Source: Bryobacteraceae bacterium (lineage in GTDB: Bacteria; Acidobacteriota; Terriglobia; Bryobacterales; Bryobacteraceae). Taken from it: a stretch of 64,000 nucleotides of DNA. The position numbers were made by a program, and so were the translations under genes. The notes under the pieces were generated by a model. It searched no databases, had not been told where the DNA came from, and saw only the letters and a program-made list of their open reading frames with translations. Each line of letters begins with the position of its first letter. Position 1 is the first letter of the stretch. Positions 18,052-40,301 of this stretch are shown in pieces. The DNA lies in contig JAHCHE010000012.1 of assembly GCA_026129905.1 (NCBI GenBank), positions 124,001-188,000 on the forward strand, written 5' to 3'.

Positions 18052-18433
18052 TATTTGTAGAATTCGGACCCGCTATTCTGATTGCCACTCTTTAAACCAA
18101 TCGTGCTCTGTCGTGCCCCCACCTGCCGACGGAACCGTCCCCAGTCTTGAAACTCAGGCAGCGTGGAGGTGTCAATCGGCCCGCAGCCCCGTACTGGTCT
18201 TTGCCACTTCAGGTTCACCGCCGGCAGCCTCTCGTTGAGCGCCCCCCGTAAAGACCTCGGCGACGATGACGGCATCCGACTCCCGCTGTAGGCCCATCGA
18301 AGGCCCAGGGCAGCCGTGAGTCTTTTCAAGGTGGCCGCCGTCTTGAGACGTTGTGTTCGGCCTGCCGAGTCAATACCGTTTTCTCTTGGTCCCGCACCCG
18401 CACGGTCCGGGTGGTAAGCTGTCTCTGCACCAC
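18052..18433. other. Intergenic stretch of about 380 bases, no confident gene
   Basis: This lies between the Cys-rich gene and the TDT transporter. A minus-strand frame reads LKRLTAALGLRWAYSGS and may be part of a decayed gene, but I cannot identify a family. The transporter frame is open upstream to a GTG at 18353, so the 3' part could be an N-terminal extension of that gene. Confidence 0.35.
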
Positions 18434-19546
18434 ATGGCTACCGCTTCCAACTCGTCCGGATATCCACCGCTGACCGCCTCGCCACTGTCGACCTTGAAGA
18501 GGACCCTCATGGGTCTGTCTGCCGCCTATTTCGCCTTGGTGATGGCAACCGGGATTGTCTCGCTAGCCGCTCACATGCTGGGAATGCCCCGGCTTGCGGT
18601 CGTGCTGTTTGGAGTCAACGTGGCCGCGTATGTGGTTCTTTGGGTGCTGAACGGTCTTCGCGTCTTTTGGTTCACCAGTCTGGTAGCCGCCGATCTAATC
18701 GATCATCAGCGGGGTCCTGGGTTCTTCACCTCGGTCGCCGGGTCGTGTGTTTTGGGCAGTCAGTTTATCCTGATCGCGGAGGATTACCGCACGGCGACGG
18801 TCCTATGGATCTTGGGTATCGTGCTGTGGCTGCTGCTGACGTACACGATCTTCACGGCGTTCACGATCAAGAAGGACAAGCCGGCGTTGCAGGAAGGGAT
18901 AACCGGAGCCTGGCTTCTGGCGGTCGTAGCCACACAAGCAGTTGCTGCCCTGAGTGCCCTCATCGCTCCGCACTGGGAACAGCCATACCGGCTGATGATC
19001 AACTTCCTCGGCCTGTGCTTGTGGTTGTGGGGAGGGATGCTCTATATCTGGATGATCTCCCTGATTTTCTACCGCTATACGTTCTTCCGGTTCTCGCCGG
19101 GCGACCTGACGCCGCCCTACTGGATCAACATGGGGGCGATGGCGATCTCGACGTTGGCAGGCGCCCGCCTGATAGTCAACGCTCCAGACGCTTGGTTCCT
19201 CCATTCTCTTCTCCCGTTCCTCAAGGGCTTCACTGTCTTCTACTGGGCGACCGGTACGTGGTGGATACCCATGCTGGTGATCCTGGCCGTTTGGCGGTAC
19301 GTGTACGAGAGGTTTCCGCTGGAGTATGATCCTCTCTATTGGGGCGCCGTCTTTCCGCTCGGAATGTACACCGTAGGAACGTTCCAGATGGCGCGCGCCA
19401 TGGAACTGGATTTCCTGTTCGTGGTCCCTCGCTATTTTGTCTACGTCGCTCTGGCGGCGTGGCTGGCTACGTTCCTGGGTCTCTGTCGCACGCTGGGTCG
19501 CGGTCTATTGGAGCTACTGCGGAAGTCGCCACGCACCATCCCTTAG
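18434..19546 (+). CDS. TDT-family (TehA/SLAC1-like) transporter
   Basis: A protein of about 370 residues with ten hydrophobic helices, typical of the tellurite-resistance/dicarboxylate transporter family, which also includes SLAC1 anion channels. The first helix, LSAAYFALVMATGIVSLAAH, carries the family's YFALVMATGIVS motif; later helices contain FYWATGTWWIPML. Family members conduct anions such as dicarboxylates, sulfite or nitrate; given the surrounding nitrate genes, an anion role is plausible but not shown. Start uncertain: ATG 18434 is used, ATG 18509 has a better ribosome site (AGGA, five bases), and GTG 18353 is the farthest upstream. Confidence 0.8.
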   Translation: MATASNSSGYPPLTASPLSTLKRTLMGLSAAYFALVMATGIVSLAAHMLGMPRLAVVLFGVNVAAYVVLWVLNGLRVFWFTSLVAADLIDHQRGPGFFTSVAGSCVLGSQFILIAEDYRTATVLWILGIVLWLLLTYTIFTAFTIKKDKPALQEGITGAWLLAVVATQAVAALSALIAPHWEQPYRLMINFLGLCLWLWGGMLYIWMISLIFYRYTFFRFSPGDLTPPYWINMGAMAISTLAGARLIVNAPDAWFLHSLLPFLKGFTVFYWATGTWWIPMLVILAVWRYVYERFPLEYDPLYWGAVFPLGMYTVGTFQMARAMELDFLFVVPRYFVYVALAAWLATFLGLCRTLGRGLLELLRKSPRTIP

Positions 19547-19700: not shown

Positions 19701-20234
19701 TCAAGCCGGATTTCGGGCCTTGCTGCCTGCGCCCAAGAACTCCACGAAACGCGCCTCGGTTGCCCGTAGTCTGCGAGCGACCATGCCTGCCAGGTTCCGA
19801 AACACAAGCAAGCCCATCCGAGGATTTTCTTCGCAGGCTCTCATTAAGCGCCTGCCAGGAAGGCGGGCAACAACGCATTCCTCCAGCGCGCGAACCTGAA
19901 ACGCTCGGAACGGTTCATCGACCATCGCCGACCACCCGAACGTCTCCCCTGCTTCGAGCTGTTGAATGCGCACGGTGTATCCAGACGTGCGCAATTCCAG
20001 GGACACCGTTCCCGATACAAGAAGGTACAAGAACTCAGAGCGATCGCCAGATCCGAAGATCTGCTGGTCTTGCTCGAACGACACCACTTCGGCCAGCCGG
20101 GCCAAAATGCCAAGCTGCGGCTTCGTCAGTTCTTGTGTGAAGGGATGCGACCGCAACATTTCCAGCGCACCTGTTCGCGTGATTTGCCCCACCGAGTGGG
20201 TCTGGTGGCTCGCTCTCTCGTTTGGCGTACCCAT
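19701..20234 (-). CDS. Cyclic-nucleotide-binding-domain protein lacking a DNA-binding domain
   Basis: A 177-residue protein with a CRP-like sensory fold: FTQELTKPQLGILARLAEVV, then FLYLLVSGTVSLEL, the GETFGWSAMV phosphate-cassette region and a C-terminal helix NPRMGLLVFRNLAGMVARR that corresponds to the dimerisation helix. The sequence then stops, so the helix-turn-helix of true CRP/FNR regulators is absent; I see none in the following 150 bases in any frame. It is therefore probably not a transcription factor, though an ancestral regulator may have been truncated. Start ATG 20234 is tentative; GTG 20306 and ATG 20159 are alternatives. It follows the molybdoenzyme cluster on the same strand. 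Confidence 0.72.
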   Translation of the reverse strand: MGTPNERASHQTHSVGQITRTGALEMLRSHPFTQELTKPQLGILARLAEVVSFEQDQQIFGSGDRSEFLYLLVSGTVSLELRTSGYTVRIQQLEAGETFGWSAMVDEPFRAFQVRALEECVVARLPGRRLMRACEENPRMGLLVFRNLAGMVARRLRATEARFVEFLGAGSKARNPA

Positions 20235-20502
20235 ATTTCGCGGAGATCCCAGGATCGACCGAGATATTTGCAATTGTGTTGCCAACGCAGGTCGGTACCT
20301 CGGCACTCTTGTCCAAGTTACAGTAGCTTCGCAACGAAAGCAGTCTGGACGTTACTGGCGTAACAGGCGCACTCTTGTCGGACCCGATCCAGCCACAGAT
20401 GCCGCACAGCGGGAAGTTCCGCGTTCGTATGGAAGGCCCGGTGCTGCGATGTCCAGAGTTACGGGATCTTGAGAGTACACGCCAGGGTTCGTGGGCACCC
20501 CT

Positions 20503-20727
20503 TTATTGCATCTGGTGGAGGTACCACAACAACCCGGCGTTGAGTCCGAGACAGAGCGAGCTCGCTAAGGCAGCCGGCAGCACGATGCTGGTGTCTCCAC
20601 CCAAATAGGCGTTCATCGTCGCCGTAAACAGCCATAGTTGGAGCGCAACGATCAGGATCACGAATACGAGGATGCCATTCACGATCGTCATTCGCTGAGA
20701 GCGCGCGAAGCGGCTGCGCCGGCTCAT
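20503..20727 (-). CDS. Small membrane protein, DUF6755-like
   Basis: A 74-residue protein with a basic N-terminus (MSRRSRFARSQR) and two hydrophobic helices, TIVNGILVFVILIVALQLWLF and a segment around VLPAALASSLCLGLNAGLL. It resembles small DUF6755 proteins, which are found beside Rieske and molybdoenzyme genes. Its ATG overlaps the stop of the Rieske gene (ATGA at 20724-20727), so it is the last translationally coupled member of the molybdoenzyme complex and is likely a membrane accessory or anchor subunit. The family call is from memory of the pattern and is moderate. Confidence 0.65.
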   Translation of the reverse strand: MSRRSRFARSQRMTIVNGILVFVILIVALQLWLFTATMNAYLGGDTSIVLPAALASSLCLGLNAGLLWYLHQMQ

Positions 20728-21290
20728 ACTCCTGGCTCCTCCACGCCGGTGGCATAGACAGTTCCTTCCCGTATATCGAGCAGTATCCGGGCGAGAGGGC
20801 GTCTGGGGGGACCGGCGAGGGGCCGGCCAGTTTCCAGGTCGAACCAGCCGTTGTGGCACGGACAATGGAGTTGGCTCCGCTCGACTGCGGGAACAACAGG
20901 ACAAAGGAGATGGGTACACTGCTGGTCGTAGGCGACGAACGTTTCCGGTCCTGTCCGGACCAGGAGCCGGGGTGGGCTTCCTTCGGGATAGTGAAATGTT
21001 TTGGCGCCGCCAACGGGAAGCTCGTCCACGGCTGCTACGGCGGCATCCGCCAGGGAGTCTCCGCCGCCGTCCGACCAACTCTTTACCACGACCCAGGATT
21101 GCCCCGCCGCCAATGCGGCGCTGGTCAGCACAATGAACTTCACCAGCTCGCGCCGCGAGACGTAATCGTCTTCCGGCCAGTCGATTGGAAAATCCTGGCG
21201 CCACCTGGGTTGCCCGGCGGCCGGCGCGCCGTCCGGCGAAACCGCCTCGTCATTCATACTTCCGGGGAAGCCAGTTTCTTCGTGGTTCAT
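20724..21290 (-). CDS. Rieske [2Fe-2S] protein
   Basis: A 188-residue membrane-tethered Rieske protein. A single hydrophobic segment (LVKFIVLTSAALAAGQSWVVV, about residues 49-69) follows a cytoplasmic RREL stretch, resembling a Tat-type or uncleaved anchor. The cluster motif is C-T-H-x15-C-P-C-H, including the extra cysteines of the structural disulfide as in bc1-type proteins. It sits between the 4Fe-4S subunit and the DUF6755-like gene, with no bc1 or b6f cytochrome b alongside, so it is probably an electron-transfer subunit of the molybdoenzyme complex. Three bases separate it from the previous stop. Confidence 0.9.
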   Translation of the reverse strand: MNHEETGFPGSMNDEAVSPDGAPAAGQPRWRQDFPIDWPEDDYVSRRELVKFIVLTSAALAAGQSWVVVKSWSDGGGDSLADAAVAAVDELPVGGAKTFHYPEGSPPRLLVRTGPETFVAYDQQCTHLLCPVVPAVERSQLHCPCHNGWFDLETGRPLAGPPRRPLARILLDIREGTVYATGVEEPGV

Positions 21291-21293
21291 GCG

Positions 21294-21932
21294 TTACCCC
21301 TCATACAAGGATTCGGCGAACAAGCCGTCCAGCAGTTCGCATCCCAACGCCGGCTCGTACATGCTCGAGGTCACATCCACGATGTCTGTGGGTGAATCCC
21401 GGGGAATCATGATGTTGACTTTGGTGCGGATGGTCTGGGCGCCGAACTGGAACGTGTTGGCGGGCCTGGCGCTGGGCCGCAGCCGCGCCATTTCCTCACG
21501 CGTTCCGAACGCAAGAGCCTGGCTGGGGCACACGGACGCGCACATCGGCTTCAACCCGACGGAGGCCCGATCGTAGCACATGTCGCACTTCATCATGAGG
21601 TTCATCCCGGTGTTCATCTTCGGAACGCCGAACGGGCATGCTAACACGCAGTTGTTGCATGCAATGCAACGCGGCTTGCGCGCAGTCTGGACGACTCCAT
21701 CGCCAGTGCGTTTGATCGCGTCGGCCGGGCAAACCTCGGCGCAGGTCGGCGATTCGCAGTGCATACACACGACGGGAACCGTCTGCGTCGATTGCGCACG
21801 ATCCACCCAGTCAAGTTGGATCATCGATTGTCCTTTGTGGGTGTCGCACTCCGAGCATGCCTGGATGCACGCTTGGCAGCCGATGCACCGGCTGGGGTCG
21901 ATGAAGAATTCCAGGTTGTCAGGAACAGGCAT
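21294..21932 (-). CDS. 4Fe-4S dicluster electron-transfer subunit
   Basis: A 212-residue ferredoxin-type subunit related to DmsB/NrfC/HycB proteins. Four cysteine blocks are visible: [39 protein letters not shown] and [16 protein letters not shown]...CP, enough for up to four [4Fe-4S] clusters. It would wire the molybdoenzyme to the Rieske protein and cytochrome b. I start at ATG 21932 because the preceding catalytic gene ends at 21946; an upstream in-frame start at 21989 would overlap that gene by 44 bases. No signal peptide, so it is cytoplasmic or co-exported with a Tat partner. Confidence 0.9.
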
Positions 21933-21945
21933 GAGCAGCACACTC

Positions 21946-24258
21946 TCACTGTTGGGGTTCAAGGAGCCCCGCGTATTCCGGCGGGCCATCGGCCTTGCGC
22001 ACCCGGACAGCGCAGACCTTGTATTCCGGTATCTTCGAGATGGGGTCCTGCGCCGCGATCGTAAGCTGGTTGGCGCTCTTGCGGCCGGGCCAGTGGTAGG
22101 GGATGAACACAGTATCGGGCCGGATCGTGTTCACCACCAACGAGCGGAGCGTGCAACTGCCCCGGCGGCTCTCTACTGTCACCCAATCGCCGTCGCCGAC
22201 TCCGAGGCGTGAAGCGAGCCGCGGGTGCATCTCGACTCTCGGCTCCGGGTAGTGGTCCACAAGCGGTCCGATACGCCGCGTCTGGTTCCCCGACAGGAAC
22301 TGGCTTACCACGCGGCCCGTGGTGAGGATGATCGGAAAGTCGCCGTCGACGTCTTCCGCCGGTCCGGAATAGGGTATGCCGTGAAACCGGGCTCTGCCAT
22401 CGGGGAAATAGAATGGGCCGGCGCCCTTCGCCACCGGATTCCAGGATTCTGGCTCGAAAAGCCGCGGTGTTCCCTGAGGGCCCGGTGTGGGCACGCCCTC
22501 AGGCGTTTCGCTCGGACACGGCCAAAATACGCCGAAGTTCTCCTCGATACGCTCGTAGGTGACACCCGAGTAGTCCGCGACGCCGCCCTTGGACGCGATG
22601 CGCAACTCTTCGAACATCTCCCGCGGGCTGCTGAATGTGAAGCCTCGTTCCCGACCCAAGAACTGAGCAATATCCTGGATGATTTGCCAATCGGGCCGCG
22701 CTTCACCCGGACAATCCACCGCTTTGTTGATTCGGATGATCCGGCCCTCGACCTGGGTGACCGTGCCCTCGTCCTCTTCTTGGAGTGAACCGGGCAGCAC
22801 CAGGTGGGCGTAGCGCGCCGTCTCGCTCATGAAGAAATCTATGGCCACATAGAAGTCGAGTTTCGCGAGGGCTTGGCGGACGAAGTTGCTGTCGGGGAGC
22901 GAGACGACGGGATTGAAGCAGATGCTCAGGAGACCCTTGATCTCACCCCTGTCGATCTTGCGGATGATTTCGTAGGCGTCGGCTCCGCTGCGGGGGAGGT
23001 CCCCGGGGTCGATTCCCCAGACCTTGGCGACATAGGCGCGGTGCTCGGGGTTATCCAGGTCGCGACCTCCGGGAAGCTGATCGCACTTTTGCCCATGCTC
23101 GCGGCCGCCTTGGCCGTTGCCCTGCCCCGTGATGGTGCTGTATCCGCAGTTGGGCCGGCCGATCCGCCCGGACGCCAGTACGATGTTAATGGCGCTCAGC
23201 ACATTCATCACGCCGTGGCTGTGATGCTCGAGGCCACGGGCGTGTAGCAGGAAGCTAGTCCTGGCCGTACCCCACAACTCGGCGGCCCGCCGGATGGCCT
23301 TCTCGGCGATTCCGGTCACCTCGGCTGTCCGGGACGGCGTCCACTCGCGCGCTTGCCCGGCCGCGGCGTCAAAATCCACGGTGTGCTTGGCGATGAAATC
23401 GTGGTCCAGCCAATCATTCTCGATCATCAGGTGCAGAATGCCATTGAAGAGCGCCGTGTCTCGGCCCGGCTTGACTGGCAGAAACAGATCACAGGTTCTG
23501 GCGAGAGGCGTGATGCGCGGGTCGACGACAATGACCTTCGCTCCGTGCTCACGAGCCTGCCACACGTAGTTCGTGGTAATGGGCGCGCACTCGGCAATGT
23601 TGGCGCCGCTGACCAGGATGACCTCCGCGCCAAGAATGTCGCTCCACGGGTTGGCTGCGCGGTCGATGCCGAACGCCTTCTTGTTCGCGGCCGCGGCACT
23701 CACCATGCAGAGCCGGCCGTTGTAATCGATGTTTGCCGTGCGCAAACACATATGGGCGAATTTGCCCATCAAGTAGGTTTTCTCGGTCGTCAGGCTCGCG
23801 CCCGAAAGAACGGCAAAGGCGTCACGGCCAAACTCGTTCTGAAGGCGGTCAATCGAAGCGGCAACGCGACGGATCGCCTCCGGATACGGTATCGGTCGAA
23901 AGCCGCCCGGAGCGACCGAGTCCTTCTCGTAGGCGTGCAGGAGGCGGTCCGGGTGGTCTTGTTGCAGGTAGCGCTTGACGCCTTTCGGGCAAAGCATTCC
24001 CTGGTTGAACGGAAACTCGTACCAAGGTTCGATGCCGATGATGGTGTTGTCCTTAACCTTGAGTTGGAGGCCGCACTGCTGGCCACAGAAACAACAGTGC
24101 GTTTTTACATATTTGTCCGGCTCTACCCCTGTGTCTACTCGGATGTCGTCAGCGTAAGCCCGGAATGGTCCGAAGGTACGAATGCTCTCCAGATCCAGCG
24201 GCGGCGCTGGCGGCGTTTCTTCGCCGCGGTTGCCAGAGATCGTTATGGGTGACTTCAT
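21946..24258 (-). CDS. NasA/NapA-like molybdopterin oxidoreductase (catalytic subunit)
   Basis: A 770-residue bis-MGD enzyme of the nitrate reductase/formate dehydrogenase group. An N-terminal [4Fe-4S] site is formed by C55, C58, C62 and C90 (CCFCGQQC and MLCPKG). Cys184 in NGRLCMVSA is the expected molybdenum ligand, as in NapA and NasA. The block [14 protein letters not shown] followed by LPGGRD resembles assimilatory and periplasmic nitrate reductases. No twin-arginine signal is seen at the N-terminus, suggesting a cytoplasmic protein. ATG 24258 overlaps the cytochrome b stop (ATGA). The likely substrate is nitrate, but formate or another oxyanion is possible; the Rieske plus cytochrome b partners are unusual for an assimilatory enzyme. 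Confidence 0.85.
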
Positions 24259-25406
24259 GGATAAAAATTCTCCGCATCCTCGACCCCCAGCGGCCCCTCG
24301 CCCATACCGCGGTTGACCCGAACCGGCATCGAGATGGCCCGCGCGTCCGCCTCCAGCGGCACTCCCCCACGTCGTCCCCGCCACAGCAGACCCTGAGCGA
24401 TGGCAAGCGAGGCACGGCGGCAGGACGGACAGATCCACTGGTAATGCTCTGCTTCAGTGCCGGGAATCTCGTAGCGATACCCGAGCTTGCGCTCGACTTC
24501 CATCAAGTCCTCGACGTGCATGCGCGACGTAAAGGCGTGCCCACACCCTCTGCAACAAGCCTTGGCTTCGGCCCGTCCGACGTCCTTGTAGAAGCCGACG
24601 CCCATCTGCGCTGGGCGCTGGAAGATGTGGAAGAACTTTCCGAAAGGAAGCCAGAGAAACGTCCCGATCACCGTGATCGCATGAAGGATGGCAATGAATG
24701 TGTATCCGTAGCCCTTCATCCACGTGTAGCTGGCAGTGAGCATGAGTCCGGTGAGACTCACTGCGAACAGCAGGATCAGCGGCATGAAGTCCTCGGCGAA
24801 CCGCTGCAAAGCGGCGGCGCCCTCTTCCCGCATCCGGCGGCGCATCGCCAACATCACTCCCGCAATGACGAGAAACGACGCCCACACCAGTCCATGGAAC
24901 AGAAAGAACGCCACCGCCGATTCATGCGGAAAGCGAAAAACGGGAAAACCGAAAATCACCGCCTCGTACAGCGAAAGGTCGCCGGCCACCGGCTGGAAGT
25001 GAAGCCAGCCGAAGACCAGCGGGAACGTAATGGCAACCGCAATGAGACATCCCCACATGATCAGCAGATGGGTGATCCCTCGCAGCCGGTTGCGCTGAAA
25101 AATGAAGCGGTTCGCGAGGAACTCGGAAACCAGCCGCCGGAACCATGTGCCGGCGTTGCGCAGACGCCACCCACTCCGGAAGAATACTTGCCACCCCCGC
25201 CGCCAGTAGACCGCGGTGGGCGGCCGTTGCAGCCACATCGCATAGCGGTACGTCAAGCCGAACGTCGCGAACAGAATGGAGAACGTGTAGGCGACGAGGG
25301 CCGCGTCAAAGTGTGCGAGATTGCGCGAACCCGCGACGATGAGCGCCCCGAGGGCAAGGGTGAGGCCGACTCCCCAGCTAGTGGCAATTGAGACTTCTCG
25401 AGTCAT
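24255..25406 (-). CDS. Membrane cytochrome b-like subunit with C-terminal zinc ribbon
   Basis: A 383-residue protein with about six membrane helices and histidines at helix ends ([47 protein letters not shown]), like NarI/HdrE-type diheme cytochromes b. The C-terminal 110 residues are soluble and contain CCRGCG and CPSC, a zinc-ribbon or Fe-S knuckle. It would exchange electrons between the quinone pool and the molybdoenzyme encoded directly downstream (ATGA overlap). Start ATG 25406 avoids an overlap with the methyltransferase gene; the frame is open to a GTG at 25484. The zinc-ribbon tail is not usual for NarI. Confidence 0.75.
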
Positions 25407-25458
25407 TATTTCGTGCGTGGGGCTTGGAACACTGCTCCCAGGTTCTGTCTCCAGCGTA

Positions 25459-26115
25459 TCATGGGTGCTTCGGCTTCTCCGCACGGAGGTGAATGATTGT
25501 TCCCAACGGATGAATGCGGGAGCGAAGAGTCTCCAGGCGCTTGAACCCGGCCTCGTGGATAAGACTGGCCAGCCGGCCGGCCGAGTGATCAGCGGTTTGC
25601 TCGAAGCCGTCCAGCAATCGCACCAGCAGGAATCCGAGGGCCGATTTGCCGCAGGGCTTGGTCCAGTCCGCGACGTGCAACTTCCCGCCAGGCCGCAACA
25701 CCCGCCTGGCTTCGGACAGCGCCAGCATCTTCTGGCTGCGGACCAGATGGTGCAGGAACAGGACCGCCGTCACATAGTCGAAAGTGGAGTCTGGGAATGG
25801 GAGGCGCCGAGCAGTCCCCAATACCCATTGGGCCCCCGCCGCCGGAGCCTGACGTACGGCTTGTGCGAGCATTCGGTGGTCGACGTCCAGTCCGGTGACT
25901 CGAACGCCGCAGTGCCGGCTTAGCAGCGCACGAGATAGTTGTCCGGGACCGCACCCCAGATCCAGTACCGAGGAGGCCGGTGCGCAGCGCAGCTCGGCCG
26001 AAACCAGCGCTGGAAGATCATCGAGCGAGAGACGGCGCAGCCATGATTCGTAAGCTGTTACGGAGCGCCAGCGTCCGAGCGCCGGAACCCAACCCTCCCG
26101 AACGCGTCGTTTCAA
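25459..26115 (-). CDS. SAM-dependent methyltransferase (UbiE-like)
   Basis: A 218-residue class I methyltransferase. Motif I is [12 protein letters not shown], followed by [12 protein letters not shown], then [16 protein letters not shown] and [14 protein letters not shown], a regular UbiE/COQ5-like order. The substrate is unknown. TTG 26115 is the only start near the 5' end and has GGAG seven bases upstream. It lies in the minus-strand series between the hemerythrin and cytochrome b genes, with gaps of 40 and 52 bases. Confidence 0.83.
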
Positions 26116-26155
26116 GCAGGGACTCCGTTTGTCAATGGCTGCTCAAACGACCGCC

Positions 26156-26590
26156 TCACCGCACGTTCCGACGGCAAGCCCACGCGGAGCCCAGGGCTTG
26201 CTGTTTGTCCAATGAGAGCATTCGTTCGGAGAGCGGAAAGATTTGTTCCTCTTCCTTCTGGAGGTGCTTTCGTGTCGCCGCGACTGCGTCTCGCAGCAGC
26301 CGGCGCCGGGCCATTCGCTCCGGCGTTTCCGAGACCTCCTCAAGCAGGGCCGCGATCACTTCATGATCGGTCCGGGTATCGCCCCCCGGATCCGGCGCGG
26401 GTAGGTAGTCGATAATCTCCGGCCGCAGGAGCTCATCCTCAATCGACGCGTGCGTGAGCAGCGTCGCGCTGAGCATCTCCGCCTGAAACGCCAGTTCGCC
26501 TGCCGTGGCTCCCTCGAGCCGTCCTTCAATGAAATCCAGCAGTGGCTTGATCGCTCCATGTTCGCCCCGCAACACCTGTGTGATCGTCAT
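26156..26590 (-). CDS. Hemerythrin-like (HHE) protein
   Basis: A 144-residue di-iron candidate. Family residues are seen in LRGEHGAIKPLLDF (H11), LLTHASIEDELLRPEI (His and Glu of helix 2), RTDHEVIAALLEEV (helix 3) and RKHLQKEEEQIFPL (helix 4). Such proteins bind O2 or NO and often accompany RIC and nitronate monooxygenase genes. It lies ten bases after the flavoprotein gene, consistent with one operon headed by RIC. It is a different subtype from the hemerythrin at 3058. Confidence 0.87.
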   Translation of the reverse strand: MTITQVLRGEHGAIKPLLDFIEGRLEGATAGELAFQAEMLSATLLTHASIEDELLRPEIIDYLPAPDPGGDTRTDHEVIAALLEEVSETPERMARRRLLRDAVAATRKHLQKEEEQIFPLSERMLSLDKQQALGSAWACRRNVR

Positions 26591-26600
26591 ATTTGTGCCT

Positions 26601-28142
26601 TCAAGAGTTGCCGCTGCTGAGTGGCTTCATACCGCCCGCCCCAGCCGGGCGCGCGCTCTCGTGACCCAGAAGCTTGGCAATTACGTCCGCCGCCGAGTAC
26701 ACGGTCCCCTCCGCCGGCAGGAACCGCGCGACACCGCTGAGATCGTTACCCGCCGTGATCAGACCCTTCTCGACGTAGCTCCCCGCCCGCATCTGGGGAT
26801 GCCCAATGTTTGCCATCAGTGCGTTGCAGAGGCATTTCCTGCCGACGGTGTTGCCTGCCCTTCCGCCCTTCGACACATAGGTTGCGACTGGCTCGGCGGC
26901 GCATCGATAGCCGATCTGGCCTTCCGCCGTCCGGTAGGGTTCACGCAGGTAGCCAAGATCGCAGACGCGCGATCTACCTGCATAGACATCCTCTTCAGAC
27001 AGCGAGCCTTCGACCGCGACAACCTTGAACGGAAAGCCCGTCGGGGAGGCGAGCGGATCCGTGAATACCCGAACCGCACCGGAGGCCACGCCGTTCAGGA
27101 TGGGACGTCTGTATTCCTCACTCAGGCCCGACTCGGCGCAGAAAGCGAAGGCCGTTCCCACCTGGACGCCGGCGGCCCCCAGGGCGAGCGCCTCGCGCAG
27201 CTTTTCCGGGCTGCCGTACCCGCCGGCAAGCCAGAACGGCCGGCCCAGTTCACGCAGCCTGGCCAAGTCCACCGTGTCACGCTCTGCATAGATCGGTTCA
27301 CCCTCCTCATTGAGCGTCAGCTTCCCGCGTGGCGGGGCATTGTGTCCACCCGCCGTCGGGCCTTCGATCACGAACCCGTCCACCCTGCCATTGGCTTTCC
27401 TCGAGATCGTCACGGCGAGGGTATTGGAGGCGACAATCGCCAGGAACTTCGGGCGCATGAGCGGTGGGATTTCCCGCTCCACGATATCGCGTGGCGCGAA
27501 GCGCAGACTCGTGTCATCCCCGTCACGCGAGCCCGCGATCTGGAGCGGATATGTCGCAGGTTGGTGGTGGGCCAGACGATCGAGCACGCCGGGGATTTTC
27601 AAAGGAATGCCCGCACCCATCAAAACGAACCCGACACCGGCCAGCATGGCGCCATAGATCGAGGGCAAGTGGGGGATCTGAACCTTCTCTAGATAGTTGA
27701 TCCCTACCGGATTGCCATGCCCCTCACGGGCGAGAAAGACCTCGACGAAGTTCGACACGATGCACAAATCACGCGCCTTCGGTGGATCGTCCTTCGAATG
27801 CATGGGCAGCGTCTTGTAGGCCGCACGCGCGGGCTTGCCGCCGGGGACGAAGTAGGCCTTCCAAATACGTTTGGCCATGTCTGGAATAGGGAAATGATCG
27901 AGACCCCGCCGCATGTGTCCGCCGGGGTCGCCGTCCTGAAGCCGTCTGGCGAAGATCTGATCAAGAGCGGTCCCGGATACAACGCCCAACTGGCCCAGCC
28001 GTGAAACTGCCCGTGCCAGCCGCCAGTTGGAGACGCCAACTCCCATACCGCCCTGGATAATCGTTGGACGAGAAGAATCCACACCAGATTTTGAGAGCAG
28101 GATGTTCAACGCCTTACCGGACCCGTGCCAGCACAATCGCAC
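26601..28142 (-). CDS. Nitronate monooxygenase-like FMN oxidoreductase
   Basis: A 513-residue TIM-barrel flavoprotein of the NPD/2-nitropropane dioxygenase family. IIQGGMGVGVSNWRLA opens the barrel; VIEGPTAGGHNAPP carries the catalytic-type histidine region, and GGYGSPEKLREALALGAAGVQVGTAF forms the FMN phosphate site. It is longer than typical nitronate monooxygenases (about 320-360 residues) because of a roughly 120-residue C-terminal extension with several cysteines (CDLGYL, GYRCAAEP, KCLCNALMANIG), which resembles the PfaD/enoyl-reductase-like branch. GTG 28142 is used (AGGG, five-base spacer). Partner to the ferredoxin gene just upstream; it probably reduces or detoxifies a nitro compound or enoyl substrate. 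Confidence 0.8.
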   Translation of the reverse strand: MRLCWHGSGKALNILLSKSGVDSSRPTIIQGGMGVGVSNWRLARAVSRLGQLGVVSGTALDQIFARRLQDGDPGGHMRRGLDHFPIPDMAKRIWKAYFVPGGKPARAAYKTLPMHSKDDPPKARDLCIVSNFVEVFLAREGHGNPVGINYLEKVQIPHLPSIYGAMLAGVGFVLMGAGIPLKIPGVLDRLAHHQPATYPLQIAGSRDGDDTSLRFAPRDIVEREIPPLMRPKFLAIVASNTLAVTISRKANGRVDGFVIEGPTAGGHNAPPRGKLTLNEEGEPIYAERDTVDLARLRELGRPFWLAGGYGSPEKLREALALGAAGVQVGTAFAFCAESGLSEEYRRPILNGVASGAVRVFTDPLASPTGFPFKVVAVEGSLSEEDVYAGRSRVCDLGYLREPYRTAEGQIGYRCAAEPVATYVSKGGRAGNTVGRKCLCNALMANIGHPQMRAGSYVEKGLITAGNDLSGVARFLPAEGTVYSAADVIAKLLGHESARPAGAGGMKPLSSGNS

Positions 28143-28210
28143 ACTGGCCCTGGGTGGACAGGTCGGCTTGGCGGGTGGAAGGTGGTTTCTCCATCAGTGC
28201 CTCGGCCTCC

Positions 28211-28501
28211 CTAATGAATCGCTCCGTCCCAGCTCCTTTCCCGAGAAACCTCATATGGCTTGGCAGTCCGCCACTTGCCGCAATCTTTGCCAACACTCAT
28301 CGGCACCCAGGCCATTTGGATAGCGTCGTCTTCGCAGACGCCAATGCAGTGCTCTTCGCTACCGCAGGTATGAGGACGGACAAGCACAGCGATGCCATCC
28401 ACCAAATCGAGGGAATTCGGACCGCAGGCATCCACGCATAGGCCACAGCCCGTGCAATTCTCCTCCCGGATGACCGGCACCCATTTCTCGGTCAGGCTCA
28501 T
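28211..28501 (-). CDS. Ferredoxin with an irregular second cluster
   Basis: A 96-residue ferredoxin. The first site is regular: C16, C19, C22 and C26 (CTGCGLCVDAC). The second has only C46, C52 and C56 (CGSEEHCIGVC), missing the usual CxxC start, so it may bind a [3Fe-4S] cluster, use another ligand or be structural. It lies 15 bases after the RIC gene and 68 bases before the flavoprotein gene, for which it may be the electron donor. Confidence 0.85.
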   Translation of the reverse strand: MSLTEKWVPVIREENCTGCGLCVDACGPNSLDLVDGIAVLVRPHTCGSEEHCIGVCEDDAIQMAWVPMSVGKDCGKWRTAKPYEVSRERSWDGAIH

Positions 28502-28516
28502 CGACAGTCTCCCGCT

Positions 28517-29242
28517 TCACCGGCGAGCCTTCTCCATCTCGATGACGCGAGGGAAAAGAATGTTGTTCTCCAGGTGGATGTGCAGATGAAGATCCGCTTC
28601 CAGCTCTTGCAGGCCGTCATTCAGAGCCCGGTAGGTAGCACACGCGTATTCAGGGAGTGTATAACCGCCTGTCAGCTCTTTCATCTGGTGCAGCGCCTGG
28701 CCGGCGCTGTCGTGCTCGCGTTCCATTACCGCGATCGGATTGGCGATGCTGCCGAATGGCGACGGAGGAAGCGGCGCACCGTTACGCGAGGCTTGTTCGC
28801 AGCGATCAATGGCCGGAAACAGGATCATCTCCTCCTTGTGCATGTGCTGGTCGAGTTCCTGCCAGAGGCCCAAGAAGACCCGCGACAGGGCTTGCAACGT
28901 CTCAGGGTCCTTGTCGCCATGGGCGTTGAGTACCTTTTGCAGGCGCTGTTTCAATCGCGGGAGCTCGAGCTTCAGGTACTCGTGGTGCGTGGACACGATG
29001 TGGGAGATCAACTCGCGAAGCGACGCCGTGGCCCAGTCGCGCTGCGGCGACGGTTCCGCCGTAATTGCCTGCTCGAGTTGCTTTCGCACCTCGCTCGCAT
29101 CGAGTCCCTGCTCAGCGCAGACTTCCTCCAGAGTTCGGCGGCCGCCGCAGCAGTAGTCGATCCCATTCTTCTCCAGGACGCGAACCGCGCCCAGCGACGC
29201 CGCCGCGAAGTCTCCGACGGTATGAAGTTCCGTAGTAGTCAT
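28517..29242 (-). CDS. ric: Iron-sulfur cluster repair di-iron protein (RIC/ScdA/YtfE)
   Basis: A 241-residue RIC protein. The N-terminal ScdA_N domain contains VLEKNGIDYCCGG with its Cys pair (about residues 30-34), and the C-terminal hemerythrin domain holds the di-iron ligands in ISTHHEYLK-like, QHMHKEEMILFP, MEREHDSAG and HLHIHLENNILFPR segments. RIC repairs Fe-S clusters damaged by NO or oxidants and can reduce NO. It is the first gene of the minus-strand series and is preceded by a palindrome of CRP/FNR type at -41.5 relative to a plausible -10, predicting induction under nitrosative or anaerobic conditions. AAGG precedes the ATG. Confidence 0.93.
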   Translation of the reverse strand: MTTTELHTVGDFAAASLGAVRVLEKNGIDYCCGGRRTLEEVCAEQGLDASEVRKQLEQAITAEPSPQRDWATASLRELISHIVSTHHEYLKLELPRLKQRLQKVLNAHGDKDPETLQALSRVFLGLWQELDQHMHKEEMILFPAIDRCEQASRNGAPLPPSPFGSIANPIAVMEREHDSAGQALHQMKELTGGYTLPEYACATYRALNDGLQELEADLHLHIHLENNILFPRVIEMEKARR

Positions 29243-29285
29243 GTGGTGTCCTTTTGTGGATGGAGTCCCTCTGTTCTGTTTCTAC

Positions 29286-29331
29286 TATCGCCCGAGGGCT
29301 CACGATGGTCTGTGACTAAAGTCACGGACCC
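29286..29331 (-). promoter_or_regulatory. CRP/FNR-type operator and promoter of the RIC operon
   Basis: The palindrome TGTGACTAAAGTCACG (29313-29328) matches TGTGA-N6-TCACA with one mismatch and shares its core with the site at 13607. On the minus strand its centre (29320.5) lies 41.5 bases before a start predicted at 29279, where GATAGT (29286-29291) is correctly placed as -10. The RIC ATG is 37 bases further on. Confidence 0.72.
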
Positions 29332-29761
29332 GGACAGGACTCCAAGAACCTTCTTCCGTACAGGGGAAACCGGGTTGTCCACTTCACAAGAGCCGAGGCG
29401 GCCGGAAGCGCCGAGAGCACCTTCTGAGGGCGAATTCAGGCGGTTCGGTGGAATCTTGCGTCCTAAGCGATTGGTTGGAGTGTCTAATGGAGCCGAATGC
29501 TGCCAATGGTCAACGGCGCTGGCACGTTGGCCTGGAACTGGACAGACGGATGGCGGAATCACACCGGACGTGGTTGGTGCGCAAATCGCGAATCGCGCCT
29601 GCTGCGACGGGTGGCGGAATCTCTGCGAGAAGCCGGCCGGGGACAATACGAAGGATCCCTTGGCGAAGTGGAGCGTCGCTGAAACGTGAAGATATCCATC
29701 GGAGGCTCCGATCAAGCCTTGAGCCAACCAAACGTTCGCGTGGCAAAGAAAGGAAGTGACA
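29332..29761. other. Intergenic stretch of about 430 bases, no confident gene
   Basis: This lies between the divergent RIC operator and the radical SAM gene. Several short plus-strand frames exist (for example 29448-29759), but none has a family signature. The end supplies the ribosome site AGGAAG for the radical SAM gene. Confidence 0.4.
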
Positions 29762-30787
29762 ATGCGCAAGAGGGCAATCCTACCCGCATGGGGCCGGATT
29801 CTCCGTGGATACAGGCCGTTTCTGTCGGTGGAGATCACCAAGGAGTGTCCGCTCCGCTGCCCAGGATGCTACGCATACGAAGCCGGACATCTGAACAGCG
29901 GGGTGACCATACGGGATTTGGCTGATCGCAGGGGTTCGGAGCTTGTAGATGGCGTGGTTGGGTTGGCCAGGCAATTCCGACCGCTTCATATCTCCATCGT
30001 CGGCGGGGAGCCTCTCGTACGCTACCGGGAATTGGGTGAGTTGATTCCACGGCTCAACGCAATGGGGATCGAAGTACAACTGGTTACCAGCGCGGTCCGC
30101 CCGATCCCACTGGAGTGGACCGAGTTTGCGGATCTGCATCTGGTTGTGTCCATCGACGGGCTACAACCGGAGCACGATGTACGCCGGGCCCCGGCGACCT
30201 ATGATCGGATCCTGGACCACATCGAAGGTCATCAGGTGATCGTGCATTGCACGGTCACGAAACAGATGCTCGCCAGGCCGGGATACCTCGCGGAGTTCGC
30301 CGGGTTCTGGTCTGCACAGGCGAGCGTGCGACGGATCTGGTTCAGTCTGTTCACACCCCAGGAGGGCGACGCATCCGATGAGCGGCTGGACAGCGGGAAA
30401 CGCAAGGAGGCGCTGGCGCGGATGGAGGCGCTGGTCTCGATGTTTCCCAAGGTCCATCTGCCAGGACTCGTGGTCAAGGGGTACCGGGAGCCGCCAGCTT
30501 CGCCCGAGGATTGCATCTTCGCGCAGACGACGACCTGCATTTCAGCCGATCTGACGACGCGCGTCACACCCTGTCAATTTGGGGGGAAGCCGGTGTGCTC
30601 GGAGTGCGGCTGCATGGCGTCGGCTGGGCTAGCATCGGTCGGGAGGTACAGACTCGGTGGTGTGGTGAAGGTCGCCGAACTGTTTTGGATGTCAAGGAGG
30701 TTCGGCGCAGCATACCGCCGGCGTCTTGGCGGTGGCGTGGTGAACGAACCGGTTCCGGCGAGGCGTCTGTTGAACGTCATAGAGTAA
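29762..30787 (+). CDS. Radical SAM protein
   Basis: A 341-residue radical SAM enzyme with the cluster motif CPLRCPGC (C-x3-C-x2-C, about residues 26-33), GGEPLV in the second strand and VVSIDGLQPEHD in the barrel. The C-terminal part has further cysteines (CISADLTTRVTPC, then CSECGCM) resembling a shortened SPASM or twitch auxiliary-cluster region. Substrate unknown; SPASM-type enzymes modify peptides or act in cofactor maturation, and no precursor peptide is evident next to it. Start ATG 29762 follows AGGAAG; a GTG six bases earlier is possible. It is a stand-alone gene between a divergent operon and a pseudogene. Confidence 0.85.
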   Translation: MRKRAILPAWGRILRGYRPFLSVEITKECPLRCPGCYAYEAGHLNSGVTIRDLADRRGSELVDGVVGLARQFRPLHISIVGGEPLVRYRELGELIPRLNAMGIEVQLVTSAVRPIPLEWTEFADLHLVVSIDGLQPEHDVRRAPATYDRILDHIEGHQVIVHCTVTKQMLARPGYLAEFAGFWSAQASVRRIWFSLFTPQEGDASDERLDSGKRKEALARMEALVSMFPKVHLPGLVVKGYREPPASPEDCIFAQTTTCISADLTTRVTPCQFGGKPVCSECGCMASAGLASVGRYRLGGVVKVAELFWMSRRFGAAYRRRLGGGVVNEPVPARRLLNVIE

Positions 30788-31280: not shown

Positions 31281-31715
31281 ATGGTTTCCACGACGTCTCA
31301 GTACGCGCTACGAGCCCTCACGGAGTTGGCGGGGATCTCGGGGGGAGAAGCGATGCTTGGGCGAGACCTCGCCGAACTTGCTGATATTCCAGCGAATTAC
31401 CTTTCCAAGGTAATGTTGGCGATGCGGAATGCCGGGTTGGTGACCACGGCTCGTGGTAGCGGAGGCGGGTACAGGCTTCTGAAGAGCCCGAAGGAGATAC
31501 ACCTGATCGAAGTCGTTGGAATCTTCGATGCGCCGCAGGTAAAACCTATTTGTCTACTAGGAAAAGGTGATTGTTCAGACTGCGATCCCTGCTCGGCGCA
31601 CACCCTGTGGCGCGACGTCCGAAACGCCTACATCCAGTTCCTGGAAACCACGACGCTGGCAGACATCGCTTCCGTCCCGAAAGCGTTGAGTGTAGAGGAG
31701 AGCCAGCAGCCGTGA
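31281..31715 (+). CDS. Rrf2-family regulator upstream of the nar operon
   Basis: A 144-residue Rrf2 regulator (MVSTTSQYALRALTELAG; PANYLSKVM recognition region; GGYRLLKSP wing). Four cysteines at 91, 98, 101 and 104 (CLLGKGDCSDCDPC) could hold an Fe-S cluster; the extra CSDC differs from the three-cysteine paralogue at 62-481. Immediately downstream is a cytochrome gene whose GTG start overlaps its TGA stop, followed by narGHJIK, so it is probably the local redox- or NO-responsive regulator of nitrate respiration. Its binding site is not identified, though the promoter region has only a few dozen bases for it. Confidence 0.87.
   Translation: MVSTTSQYALRALTELAGISGGEAMLGRDLAELADIPANYLSKVMLAMRNAGLVTTARGSGGGYRLLKSPKEIHLIEVVGIFDAPQVKPICLLGKGDCSDCDPCSAHTLWRDVRNAYIQFLETTTLADIASVPKALSVEESQQP

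Positions 31716-32562: not shown

Positions 32563-32563
<1 letters not shown>
31712..32563 (+). CDS. narC: Diheme cytochrome c, NarC-like
   Basis: A 283-residue membrane-attached cytochrome c. A signal peptide ([19 protein letters not shown]) is followed by two class I haem domains with CASCH (about residue 37) and CISCH (about residue 160), and a C-terminal helix [19 protein letters not shown]. In Thermus a periplasmic cytochrome c, NarC, precedes narGHJI; position and architecture fit that type. GTG 31712 overlaps the Rrf2 stop (GTGA) and has GAGGAG upstream; ATG 31733 is an alternative. The stop TAA overlaps the narG ATG (TAATG), so translation is coupled. Confidence 0.82.
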
Positions 32564-36204
<3,641 letters not shown>

Positions 36205-36228
36205 GGACGATTTGACAAGGAGCACGAT

Positions 36229-37719
36229 ATGAATGTTCGCTCACAGATCTCGATGGTGTTTCACCTCGACAAGTGCATCGGATGCCACACGTGCAGCATC
36301 GCCTGCAAGAACATCTGGACCGATCGCAAGGGCGCCGAATACATGTGGTGGAACAACGTGGAGACCAAGCCCGGCACCGGTTACCCGACGCAGTGGGAGG
36401 ACCAGGACAAGTACAGCGGCGGCTGGGAAGTGAAGGACGGAAAGCTTCGCCTGAAATCCACCGGCAAGGGGCGGGTGGTCTTCAACATCTTCCACAACCC
36501 GCACATGCCGAGCATGGACGACTACTACGAGCCCTGGACCTACGACTATCAGGATCTCTTCAACGCCCCGGAGGGCCCGGACCAGCCTACCGCGCGTCCG
36601 GTCTCGATGGTCACGGGCGAGCTGATTCAGATCAAGTCCGGCCCCAACTGGGATGACGATCTCGGCGGATCGCCAGTATACGCCGAGAACGACCCCAACC
36701 TGAAGGGCCTCACGCCGGATCAGCGGCAACAACTGTCGGCCATCGAGCGCCTGGTCTTCTTCTACTTTCCCCGCATCTGCAATCATTGCCTGAACCCCGC
36801 CTGTGTAGCCTCATGCCCGTCGGGGGCGCTCTACAAGCGGGGCGAAGACGGCATCGTGCTGCTCGACCAGGAGCGGTGCCGGGCATGGCGGTCATGTATC
36901 GCGGCTTGCCCGTACAAGAAGGTCTTCTTCAACTGGTTCGCCGGCAAGTCCGAGAAGTGCATCCTATGCTACCCGCGTATCGAAACAGGGCAAGCGCCGG
37001 CGTGCTTCCACTCCTGCGTGGGACGTATCCGCTACTTGGGTGTCCTGCTCTACGACGCTGATCGCATTGAAGAGGTGGCCAAGAGCCCGGACGAGCAGCT
37101 TGTGGAAGCCCAGCGTTCGGTGATCCTGGACCCACACGATCCGGAAGTGGCCGCCGCCGCGCGTCAGAACGGAATTTCGGAAGCGGTGATCGAATCAGCA
37201 CGGAAATCGCCCGTTTACCAGTTCGTCAAGATGTGGAAGCTTGCGCTGCCGCCACACATCGAGTATCGAACGATGCCCATGCTGTTCTACGTTCCGCCGA
37301 TGTCACCGGTGATGGCATCCCAGGATGGTAAGACCGTGAATCACACGTCGGATGATCTCTTCCACGATATCGATCAGGCGCGAGTCCCGATGAAGTTTCT
37401 GGCCAACCTGTTCGGCGCCGGCCACGAAGGCAAGGTGCGCTACGCGCTACGCAAGCAGAAGGCGGTCCGCTGGTACCGGCGGGCGCTGACCGTAGGCGAC
37501 GTCGACATGGCCACGGCGGAGCGCATGCTGCGGGAAGCGGACTGCTCTACCGAAGAAGCGGAAGCGATTTACAGGCTGACTTCTCTCTGCACGTTCTCCG
37601 AGCGCTTCGTCATTCCACCCTCGCACCGCGAGCAGGCCATCGAAATGATGAAGGACCCGCGCGAACATCAATCGTTCGCTGGCTTTGGCTTCCTGACGGG
37701 ACCGGGGAGGGCAATGTGA
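36229..37719 (+). CDS. narH: Nitrate reductase beta subunit
   Basis: A 496-residue electron-transfer subunit with four cysteine clusters: CIGCHTCSIACK, CNHCLNPACVASCPSG, CRAWRSCIAACPY and CILCYPRIE with later cysteines. In the third cluster a Trp replaces one Cys (CRAWRSC), the hallmark of the [3Fe-4S] cluster of NarH. It relays electrons from NarI haems to NarG. Translation of narJ is coupled through TGATG at the stop. Confidence 0.97.
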   Translation: MNVRSQISMVFHLDKCIGCHTCSIACKNIWTDRKGAEYMWWNNVETKPGTGYPTQWEDQDKYSGGWEVKDGKLRLKSTGKGRVVFNIFHNPHMPSMDDYYEPWTYDYQDLFNAPEGPDQPTARPVSMVTGELIQIKSGPNWDDDLGGSPVYAENDPNLKGLTPDQRQQLSAIERLVFFYFPRICNHCLNPACVASCPSGALYKRGEDGIVLLDQERCRAWRSCIAACPYKKVFFNWFAGKSEKCILCYPRIETGQAPACFHSCVGRIRYLGVLLYDADRIEEVAKSPDEQLVEAQRSVILDPHDPEVAAAARQNGISEAVIESARKSPVYQFVKMWKLALPPHIEYRTMPMLFYVPPMSPVMASQDGKTVNHTSDDLFHDIDQARVPMKFLANLFGAGHEGKVRYALRKQKAVRWYRRALTVGDVDMATAERMLREADCSTEEAEAIYRLTSLCTFSERFVIPPSHREQAIEMMKDPREHQSFAGFGFLTGPGRAM

Positions 37720-38249
37720 TGGCAAGGGTTGGTGCGTTGATGGGATTGCTGCTGGCGTACCCGGACAGGGAGTATCTCGACCGGGTGGATAACTGCTGTG
37801 AGCAATGCCGTGAGCGGTTTCCGGAGGTTTGCCGGAGACTGTCGCGTCTGGCCACCGAGCTCCGCGGAAAACCGGTGGTAGAGCTGCAAGAACTGTACAC
37901 TCGGACATTTGACTTGAATCCCGTCTGCTCACTGGAGGTTGGGTGGCAACTCTACGGCGAGGAATATGCGCGGGGACGATTCCTGGTCGCGATGCGGGAC
38001 CAGCTGCGGCAGCACGGGATTCCCGAATCGACGGAACTGCCTGATCACCTGACTCACCTGTTGCCGCTGTTGGACCGGTTGGAACCGAACGTGGCACAGG
38101 AGTTCGCTGCGGAGTTCGCGGGCCCAGCAGTCAAGAAGATGCTGGCGGCGTTCCAAGGTAAGGACAACCCATTCCGGGAACTGCTGCTGGCAGTCGAATC
38201 TTTGCTGCTCGTTCACGCTCAGTCGGAATTGACAGAGGTGACGGCATGA
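37719..38249 (+). CDS. narJ: Nitrate reductase maturation chaperone
   Basis: A 176-residue helical chaperone of the NarJ/TorD type. The N-terminus ALMGLLLAYPDREYLD is the typical NarJ opening, and PVVELQELYTRTFDLNP and LPDHLTHLLPLL match the conserved core. NarJ binds apo-NarGH and helps insertion of the molybdenum cofactor and FS0. ATG 37719 overlaps the narH stop, and its own stop overlaps the narI start (ATGA). Confidence 0.93.
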   Translation: MARVGALMGLLLAYPDREYLDRVDNCCEQCRERFPEVCRRLSRLATELRGKPVVELQELYTRTFDLNPVCSLEVGWQLYGEEYARGRFLVAMRDQLRQHGIPESTELPDHLTHLLPLLDRLEPNVAQEFAAEFAGPAVKKMLAAFQGKDNPFRELLLAVESLLLVHAQSELTEVTA

Positions 38250-38956: not shown

Positions 38957-38962
38957 GGAGGC

Positions 38963-40297: not shown

Positions 40298-40301
40298 GGT
40301 C

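Follow-up and report, generated by a model that had tools for sequence, protein, structure and literature searches.

Which reaction is catalysed by a molybdoenzyme that is encoded together with a Rieske protein and a membrane cytochrome b, and does such a gene set belong to one of the known nitrate reductase systems? This question is raised by a locus of a Bryobacteraceae bacterium (GenBank assembly GCA_026129905.1; host genome 8.57 Mb), which lies in a stretch of 64,000 nucleotides (contig JAHCHE010000012.1, positions 124,001 to 188,000) that was analysed as a whole and is called the window below. On its minus strand, genes for a cytochrome b, a catalytic molybdenum subunit, a 4Fe-4S protein, a Rieske protein and a DUF6755 protein follow one another (together the core; coordinates in Table 1). 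The original prediction, made from the sequence alone, had described ten packed minus-strand genes with two ATGA overlaps. Scans of open reading frames (ORFs) and with Pfam and NCBIfam recovered all ten, closely spaced, and both overlaps were confirmed at the nucleotide level, one between the cytochrome b stop and the catalytic ATG (24258-24255), the other between the Rieske stop and the DUF6755 ATG (20727-20724). Starts were set by homologue alignments (cytochrome b 25406, in ORF 24255-25484; catalytic subunit 24258; 4Fe-4S protein 21932). As argued in the following, the core probably encodes a membrane-bound, quinol-linked respiratory nitrate reductase that is built on a NasC-type catalytic subunit and has a predicted cytoplasmic active site.

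The core is a real conserved unit. Among 136 sequences examined, 105 contained the four genes other than DUF6755, the remainder being contig-end cuts, reference or outgroup loci. In 105/105 four-gene loci these genes are collinear on one strand, in the order cytochrome b, catalytic subunit, 4Fe-4S protein and Rieske protein, and chance is therefore ruled out as an explanation. DUF6755, the last gene in this order, was detectable in 102 of them; counting the seven pairs of mutual copies once, 98 loci are distinct, and DUF6755 was detected in 95 of these. The co-occurrence of the five genes, proposed earlier as a check, is thus well established, and the gene described as DUF6755-like is a clear Pfam match. 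DUF6755 (PF20540) was detected at E 0.001 in 40 of 297 Acidobacteriota genomes, and its cut-off was reached in 29. All 40 were counted as core genomes, because the core or a NasC-type gene adjoins each match; with G189 and G038, added from their loci, they make up the 42 core genomes. A Rieske homologue was found beside DUF6755 in 30/30 loci taken from this search, and wider stretches showed the same single order. An alignment scan of genomes with the cytochrome b gave at least 501 relatives. Among the best 80 of these, the catalytic gene was present in 78, the 4Fe-4S and Rieske genes in 70 each and DUF6755 in 66, and the genomes are labelled Acidobacteriota, Planctomycetota, Chloroflexota, Myxococcota and other 'delta' lineages, Gemmatimonadota, Armatimonadota, Latescibacterota, Verrucomicrobiota and Bacteroidota. 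Three Deinococcus plasmids (L163, L164, L165) add Deinococcota, which makes about ten phyla overall. Single labels may be wrong, as almost all of the 80 genomes are bins from metagenomes, with several of the phyla represented by only one or two of them.

As judged from phylogeny and residues, the catalytic subunit is a neighbour of NasC with a predicted active site of the nitrate reductase type. The molybdenum ligand site is Cys184-Met185 (numbered from ATG 24258), and Cys-Met is present in 105/105 core sequences. No N-terminus resembling a twin-arginine translocation (Tat) signal was found in the catalytic subunit, the window protein included; a loose pattern matched in 1/105 (L048), where the match probably lies upstream of the true start. 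Both observations agree with the NasA-like, Cys-ligated enzyme lacking a Tat signal that had been proposed. At the position of Escherichia coli FdhF His141, Met was found in 105/105 core sequences and also in the NasC and NapA rows shown, and the position of Arg333 of formate dehydrogenase (FDH) is occupied by Thr (96/105) or Val (9/105), never by Arg, with Thr again in the NasC and NapA rows. The stretch GQ(G/A)NGQGGREHG occurs in five aligned core rows as it does in NasC. An identity as formate dehydrogenase was rejected on the Met for His141 and the Thr/Val for Arg333, yet the closest solved structures by sequence are FDHs. Identities as canonical NarG (TIGR01580, 62.6 bits, cut-off 1084), NapA (TIGR01706, 251.1 bits, cut-off 930.55) and NasC were rejected on curated cut-offs, which for NasC is a weak test. 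The catalytic phylogeny, another check named earlier, placed 47 core rows of a 64-row tree on one side of a branch (SH-aLRT 99) and the core, the NasC rows and one NasA on one side of another (SH-aLRT 100), with FdhF and NapA beyond. This tree was a quick search with a midpoint root for drawing, and the places of the long outgroup branches (NapA, FDH, NasA) are unsure.

The remaining subunits suggest a path for electrons through the membrane. The cytochrome b had no Pfam family match, and phmmer against solved structures gave nothing; its AlphaFold model (pLDDT 83.9) suggests a resemblance to NarI in fold. H113, H242 and H260 (383-residue numbering) are present in 105/105 sequences, and H242 and H260, 18 residues apart, align with NarI H187/H205, although this hhalign match to two NarI sequences is weak (E 0.0014, probability 18). 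With H171 taken as the fourth haem ligand, we infer from the helix order that H113-H260 form the inner and H171-H242 the outer haem pair. In 105/105 sequences, the loops assigned to the inside have the higher density of Lys and Arg, with two exceptions to the pattern: the short loop 4 alone, as cut, shows no excess, and outer loop 1 has a fairly positive charge. In the tail, the Cys pairs C311/C314 and C352/C355 (in the numbering for the 409-residue ORF) occur in 105/105 sequences, as expected for the zinc-ribbon tail proposed earlier; the tail is zinc-ribbon-like and its zinc putative. Each of the 16 Cys of the 4Fe-4S protein is conserved in 104 or 105 of 105 sequences, in a four-cluster layout, and the NarH model TIGR01660 reached 36.8 bits, below its cut-off of 524. 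The Rieske protein begins with (A/S)RR(D/E)F-x-K-F, followed by a weakly hydrophobic helix. The two Arg are present in 104/105 and 105/105 sequences, a feature missing from the original prediction, and the cluster Cys/His ligands in 104/105. Because this N-terminus has the form of a Tat signal anchor, the Rieske head should lie outside. In general, a Ser and a Tyr raise the potential of the cluster in cytochrome bc1 and other high-potential Rieske proteins. At these positions the core has Gly148 (104/104 ungapped sequences) and Phe150 (103/104), which by this rule suggests a lowered potential, suited to menaquinol. The DUF6755 protein, with two hydropathy peaks, serves as a marker of the core locus and is perhaps a membrane clamp.

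The neighbours of the core point to transport of nitrate and nitrite. Neighbour genes were called with a rough codon-usage caller, so that their counts are approximate, and the RIC, Crp, SLAC1 and MFS (major facilitator superfamily) families are sequence clusters of which few members were checked by Pfam or NCBIfam; for HPP, Pfam confirmed the family in two of five loci. Within 2 kb of the core, 97 distinct loci (window excluded) contained SLAC1 (52), MFS (30), HPP (5) or none of these (10), and never two. Five of the 30 MFS proteins form the N-terminal part of a fusion with the cytochrome b. When the fetched stretches were considered in full, SLAC1 and MFS occurred together in just one locus, far below chance (Fisher p 8e-13), and this near-exclusion suggests that the two do the same job. 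SLAC1 is the commonest partner (57/104 other loci), and the first same-strand gene after DUF6755 is SLAC1 in 48/104 and MFS in 16/104 loci. For 6/6 MFS neighbours tested, TIGR00886 (NarK) was the best or second-best family, at 176-280 bits. An HPP protein is involved in nitrite transport in cyanobacteria and chloroplasts, according to the statement cited here (Maeda 2014, cited in PMC7438415). In the three Deinococcus loci examined, the last gene is annotated as a nitrate/nitrite or MFS transporter. On these three plasmids the core cytochrome b itself bears the label 'MFS transporter', which perhaps stems from the NarK-cytochrome b fusions.

An association with nitrite reduction was observed as well. 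NrfA (PF02335) is present in 28/42 core genomes vs 50/255 other Acidobacteriota genomes (p 2.5e-9, in a co-occurrence test that ignores kinship). NrfA genes were found near the core at L036/L138 (one genome), L157, L153 and L114. The last of these, Lacipirellula limnantheis, carries on one strand the core, a NarK-like gene, a NapC/NirT-type (NrfH-like) cytochrome and an NrfA-type gene cut by the locus end, and in this genome no NarG or NapA was found at E 1e-50. NarG is present in 11/42 core genomes, the window's included, vs 17/255 others, an enrichment that fits a shared nitrate lifestyle, and NapA in 2/42. At the cut-offs applied, both NarG and NapA are absent from 30 of the 42 core Acidobacteriota genomes, and 17 of these 30 have NrfA. 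The core could provide the first step of nitrate ammonification that is otherwise missing from these 17 genomes. An acidobacterial genome survey describes two strains with reported nitrate reduction in which nasA genes, but no dissimilatory nitrate reductase, were found (PMC5900883). The targets of surveys of nitrate respiration are narG and napA, and a third membrane enzyme would be missed in them, its catalytic gene being annotated only as 'molybdopterin oxidoreductase family protein'.

Nitrate is proposed as substrate because of the active site and its phylogeny, the transporters, the NrfA association and the lower likelihood of assimilation. In the resulting model, NarK-like, SLAC1 or HPP proteins would carry nitrate and nitrite across the membrane. 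The core proteins would assemble into a complex, in which the NarI-like cytochrome b and the Rieske domain may together oxidise (mena)quinol close to the periplasmic face. Electrons would then reach molybdenum through the b haems and the four [4Fe-4S] clusters, and the cytoplasmic catalytic subunit would reduce nitrate to nitrite at its Cys-ligated site; nitrite would be exported and often reduced to ammonium by NrfA. A plain NarGHI-like path would hardly be expected to combine an outer Rieske head with an active site in the cytoplasm, and this combination is the mechanistic puzzle. It is tempting to speculate that the two electrons of quinol are split: the exported Rieske protein would receive one and pass it to a periplasmic carrier of high potential, and the second would reach nitrate inside via the b haems. 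We regard such a split as rather unlikely. If true, it would link nitrate reduction to a Q-cycle-like or bifurcating step and make the enzyme a so far unknown kind of nitrate reductase.

Several observations weigh against a respiratory, NarGHI-like nitrate reductase. In the catalytic subunit, H339 and H345 are present in 105/105 core sequences, where NasC rows have Thr/Ser and Gln, and the NasC model NF047855 gave 763.5 bits at a cut-off of 1100, a weak test as 0/297 Acidobacteriota genomes pass it and the NasC gene beside nirB in G086 reaches 866.6 bits. The likeness of the cytochrome b to NarI is qualified by VIA-align, in which NarI chains (Z 11.2-11.8 over 168-187 residues) and EtfD (Z 12.2) stood above the next row (6.9), as Z below 13 can mean a common arrangement of helical bundles. 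Foldseek of the model gave no match at E 0.001 (EtfD and NarI at E 0.03-0.3), and the putative haem ligand H171 is present in 101/105 sequences and altered in 4/105. The apparent export of the Rieske protein by Tat is not required in a simple NarGHI-like path. On the side of transport, SLAC1 proteins carry several anions, and the NarK-like proteins among the six MFS neighbours tested all score below the TIGR00886 cut-off of 311.7. The genomic association is affected by relatedness, since 17 of the 42 core genomes belong to the single family f23, and outside f23 NrfA is present in 13/25 core genomes. Moreover, 13/42 core genomes have neither NarG nor NrfA, and in the 11 with NarG the core is redundant.

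The same observations can be read in other ways. A quinol-linked assimilatory nitrate reductase would carry out the same chemistry and deliver nitrite to biosynthesis rather than respiration, and the closest tree relatives, NasC enzymes of which one sits beside nirB on a Paenibacillus plasmid, speak for it. However, NirB is present in only 2/42 core genomes, each time with a separate NasC-type gene of its own beside it (NirA-type enzymes were not searched for), and NrfA is enriched instead, so that we consider assimilation quite unlikely. The near-invariant twin-arginine motif of the Rieske protein could also mean that the exported head trades electrons with a periplasmic cytochrome c, either for nitrite oxidation or with cytochrome c as donor for nitrate reduction, and the alternative complex III genes near the window locus, with homologues near L050 and L060, would suit this. 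Yet the core itself holds no cytochrome c gene, the Rieske residues predict, by the rule given above, a potential suited to menaquinol, and the NrfA association points to nitrite as product; an exchange with cytochrome c therefore seems very unlikely.

Alternatively, the Tat-like motif on the Rieske protein, absent from the catalytic subunit, might export the catalytic and Fe-S subunits as passengers, an arrangement that arsenite oxidase uses with its Rieske signal. Such an AioAB-like periplasmic enzyme is highly improbable. NarK-like proteins fused to the core or adjoining it suggest that the active site is cytoplasmic; NarK has 12 helices, so that the N-terminal fusion, together with the Lys and Arg pattern, places the cytochrome b tail in the cytoplasm, and the molybdenum ligand is Cys, unlike in AioA. 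Finally, the original prediction had proposed a quinone-linked oxyanion or nitrogen-oxide enzyme, induced by nitrosative stress and set inside a nitric oxide (NO) stress operon. The RIC, HHE and Rrf2 neighbours in the window agree with this, as does RIC in 20/104 fetched loci (17/97 distinct). Rrf2, however, was found in 12/104 (12/97 distinct), the best 80 of at least 501 cytochrome b relatives had one HHE and one NMO match near the core, and 30 other loci gave one methyltransferase and one weak NMO match. Most loci thus lack RIC, HHE and Rrf2; the stable partners are SLAC1, NarK-like and HPP proteins, joined in some loci by NrfA or NarGHI, and the active site is predicted to be of the nitrate reductase type. 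A different enzyme of nitrogen oxides or oxyanions, with nitrosative stress as inducer, is thus extremely improbable. NO-stress genes are an occasional neighbour of the core and not a property of the system, whereas the proposed enzyme class narrows well to nitrate and is probably quinone-linked. NO repair genes beside the core would also be expected of a respiratory nitrate reductase, because the enzyme would make nitrite.

Compared with known systems, the core is likely a nitrate reductase by function that stands outside Nar, Nap and Nas by their defining features, and the statement that it matches none of them as defined holds both for the cut-offs and for the partners. NasC of the Bacillus type shares the catalytic domains, Cys-Met, the Thr at the FDH Arg position (96/105), the GQ(G/A)NGQGGREHG stretch and the place in the tree; it works in the cytosol with flavoprotein partners of the NasB/NirB type, whereas the core has a four-cluster protein, a Rieske protein, DUF6755 and a membrane cytochrome b in place of a soluble enzyme with adjoining nirB/nasB. 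With NarGHI the core has in common a probable cytoplasmic active site, a four-cluster protein, a NarI-like cytochrome b and a NarK-type partner. However, NarG is about 1200 residues long and its molybdenum is Asp-ligated, and the core has no NarJ, but an additional Rieske protein, DUF6755 and a Cys-rich tail. The haloarchaeal pNar (NarA/NarB) is a nitrate reductase with Rieske protein and cytochrome b, its catalytic subunit being NarG-type and on the outer face. The noncanonical formate dehydrogenase of Bacillus has formate as substrate and other partners than the core. It belongs to the same broad catalytic clade and is described as menaquinone-linked (PMC8808070). Among NapA systems with NapGH or Rieske/cytochrome b partners, the nap locus of Caldithrix abyssi is described as encoding a nitrate reductase together with a Rieske protein and a cytochrome b (PMC5317091). 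NapA, however, is periplasmic, and the catalytic subunit of the core lacks a Tat signal. AioAB likewise combines a molybdenum subunit with a Rieske partner, which carries a Tat signal, comparable to the core Rieske motif (104-105 of 105), and it is not known to have a NarI-type cytochrome b or a four-cluster protein. In contrast to Cys184, invariant in 105/105 core sequences, AioA is described as lacking an amino-acid ligand to molybdenum (PMC10100899). In the literature searched, which leaves out most subscription journals, no description of the five-gene complex, no match to an already characterised complex and no paper naming 'DUF6755' was found. The combination of parts is not seen together in known nitrate-reducing enzymes, and the core is most likely a nitrate-respiring membrane complex.

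The window locus contains a conventional nar operon in addition to the core (Table 1). NarG was identified by its model; the genes assigned to NarH, NarJ and NarI were named by eye, and likewise those of the alternative complex III. On the plus strand (32563-47660), NarGHJI is followed by the NarK-like transporter and then by the alternative complex III operon, and this strand also holds a cytochrome c gene. Homologues of complex III and NarI genes lie near the core at L050 and L060 too. L068, a Bryobacterales metagenome-assembled genome, has NarG, NarH, NarI, SLAC1, HHE and then the core on one strand, and looks like a true nar operon beside the core. A NarG-like match at L106 was not counted, because NarG was not detected in its genome, G235, in which L035 is the same locus.

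Table 1. Position and family assignment of genes at the core locus and in its surroundings (window coordinates).
Feature	Position	Strand	Assignment and remarks
SLAC1/TehA-family anion channel	18353..19546	+ (opposite core)	PF03595
cNMP (cyclic nucleotide)-binding-domain protein	19701..20306	-	PF00027, sole Pfam domain detected; just downstream of DUF6755
DUF6755 subunit, 74 residues	20503..20727	-	PF20540, 98.7 bits, cut-off 27; two hydrophobic helices
Rieske [2Fe-2S] subunit	20724..21290	-	PF00355; predicted N-terminal twin-arginine signal/anchor
Four-cluster 4Fe-4S electron-transfer subunit, 16 Cys	21294..21932	-	PF13247 Fer4_11
Catalytic Mo-bisPGD (molybdenum bis-pyranopterin guanine dinucleotide) subunit, 770 residues	21946..24258	-	PF00384, PF01568, PF04879; NasC-like, N-terminal [4Fe-4S] site
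Cytochrome b, 383 residues	24255..25406	-	Six membrane helices, NarI-like predicted fold, C-terminal four-Cys zinc-ribbon-like tail
Class I methyltransferase	25459..26115	-	PF08241; local neighbour outside conserved core
Hemerythrin HHE protein	26156..26590	-	PF01814; local neighbour
NMO-like flavoprotein, 513 residues	26601..28142	-	PF03060; local neighbour
Small ferredoxin	28211..28501	-	Fer4 family; local neighbour
RIC/YtfE di-iron Fe-S repair protein	28517..29242	-	TIGR03652, 245.1 bits, cut-off 204.7
Radical SAM protein	29756..30787	+	Between RIC and Rrf2/nar genes
Rrf2-family regulator	31281..31715	+	PF02082; upstream of nar operon
Conventional NarGHJI operon, enzyme separate from core	32563..38956	+	ORFs; NarG TIGR01580, 1491.6 bits
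NarK-like transporter of nar operon	38963..40297	+	TIGR00886 best match, 168.1 bits, below cut-off 311.7

In the window, a promoter scan gave 0 sites vs a shuffled mean of 3.3, a terminator scan gave 19 vs 11.0, which is uninformative, and a tRNA scan detected none. The NMO-like gene (26601-28142), the ferredoxin gene (28211-28501) and RIC form a set that is rare near other core copies and may be a separate NO-related unit. On a further Deinococcus plasmid (L170), a separate NasA was observed beside nirB. A protein cluster occurs near the core in seven loci, its scanned member (L083, 6520-7131) consisting of an FmdE domain with a zinc-finger tail, and FmdE genes are annotated near the Deinococcus core copies as well.

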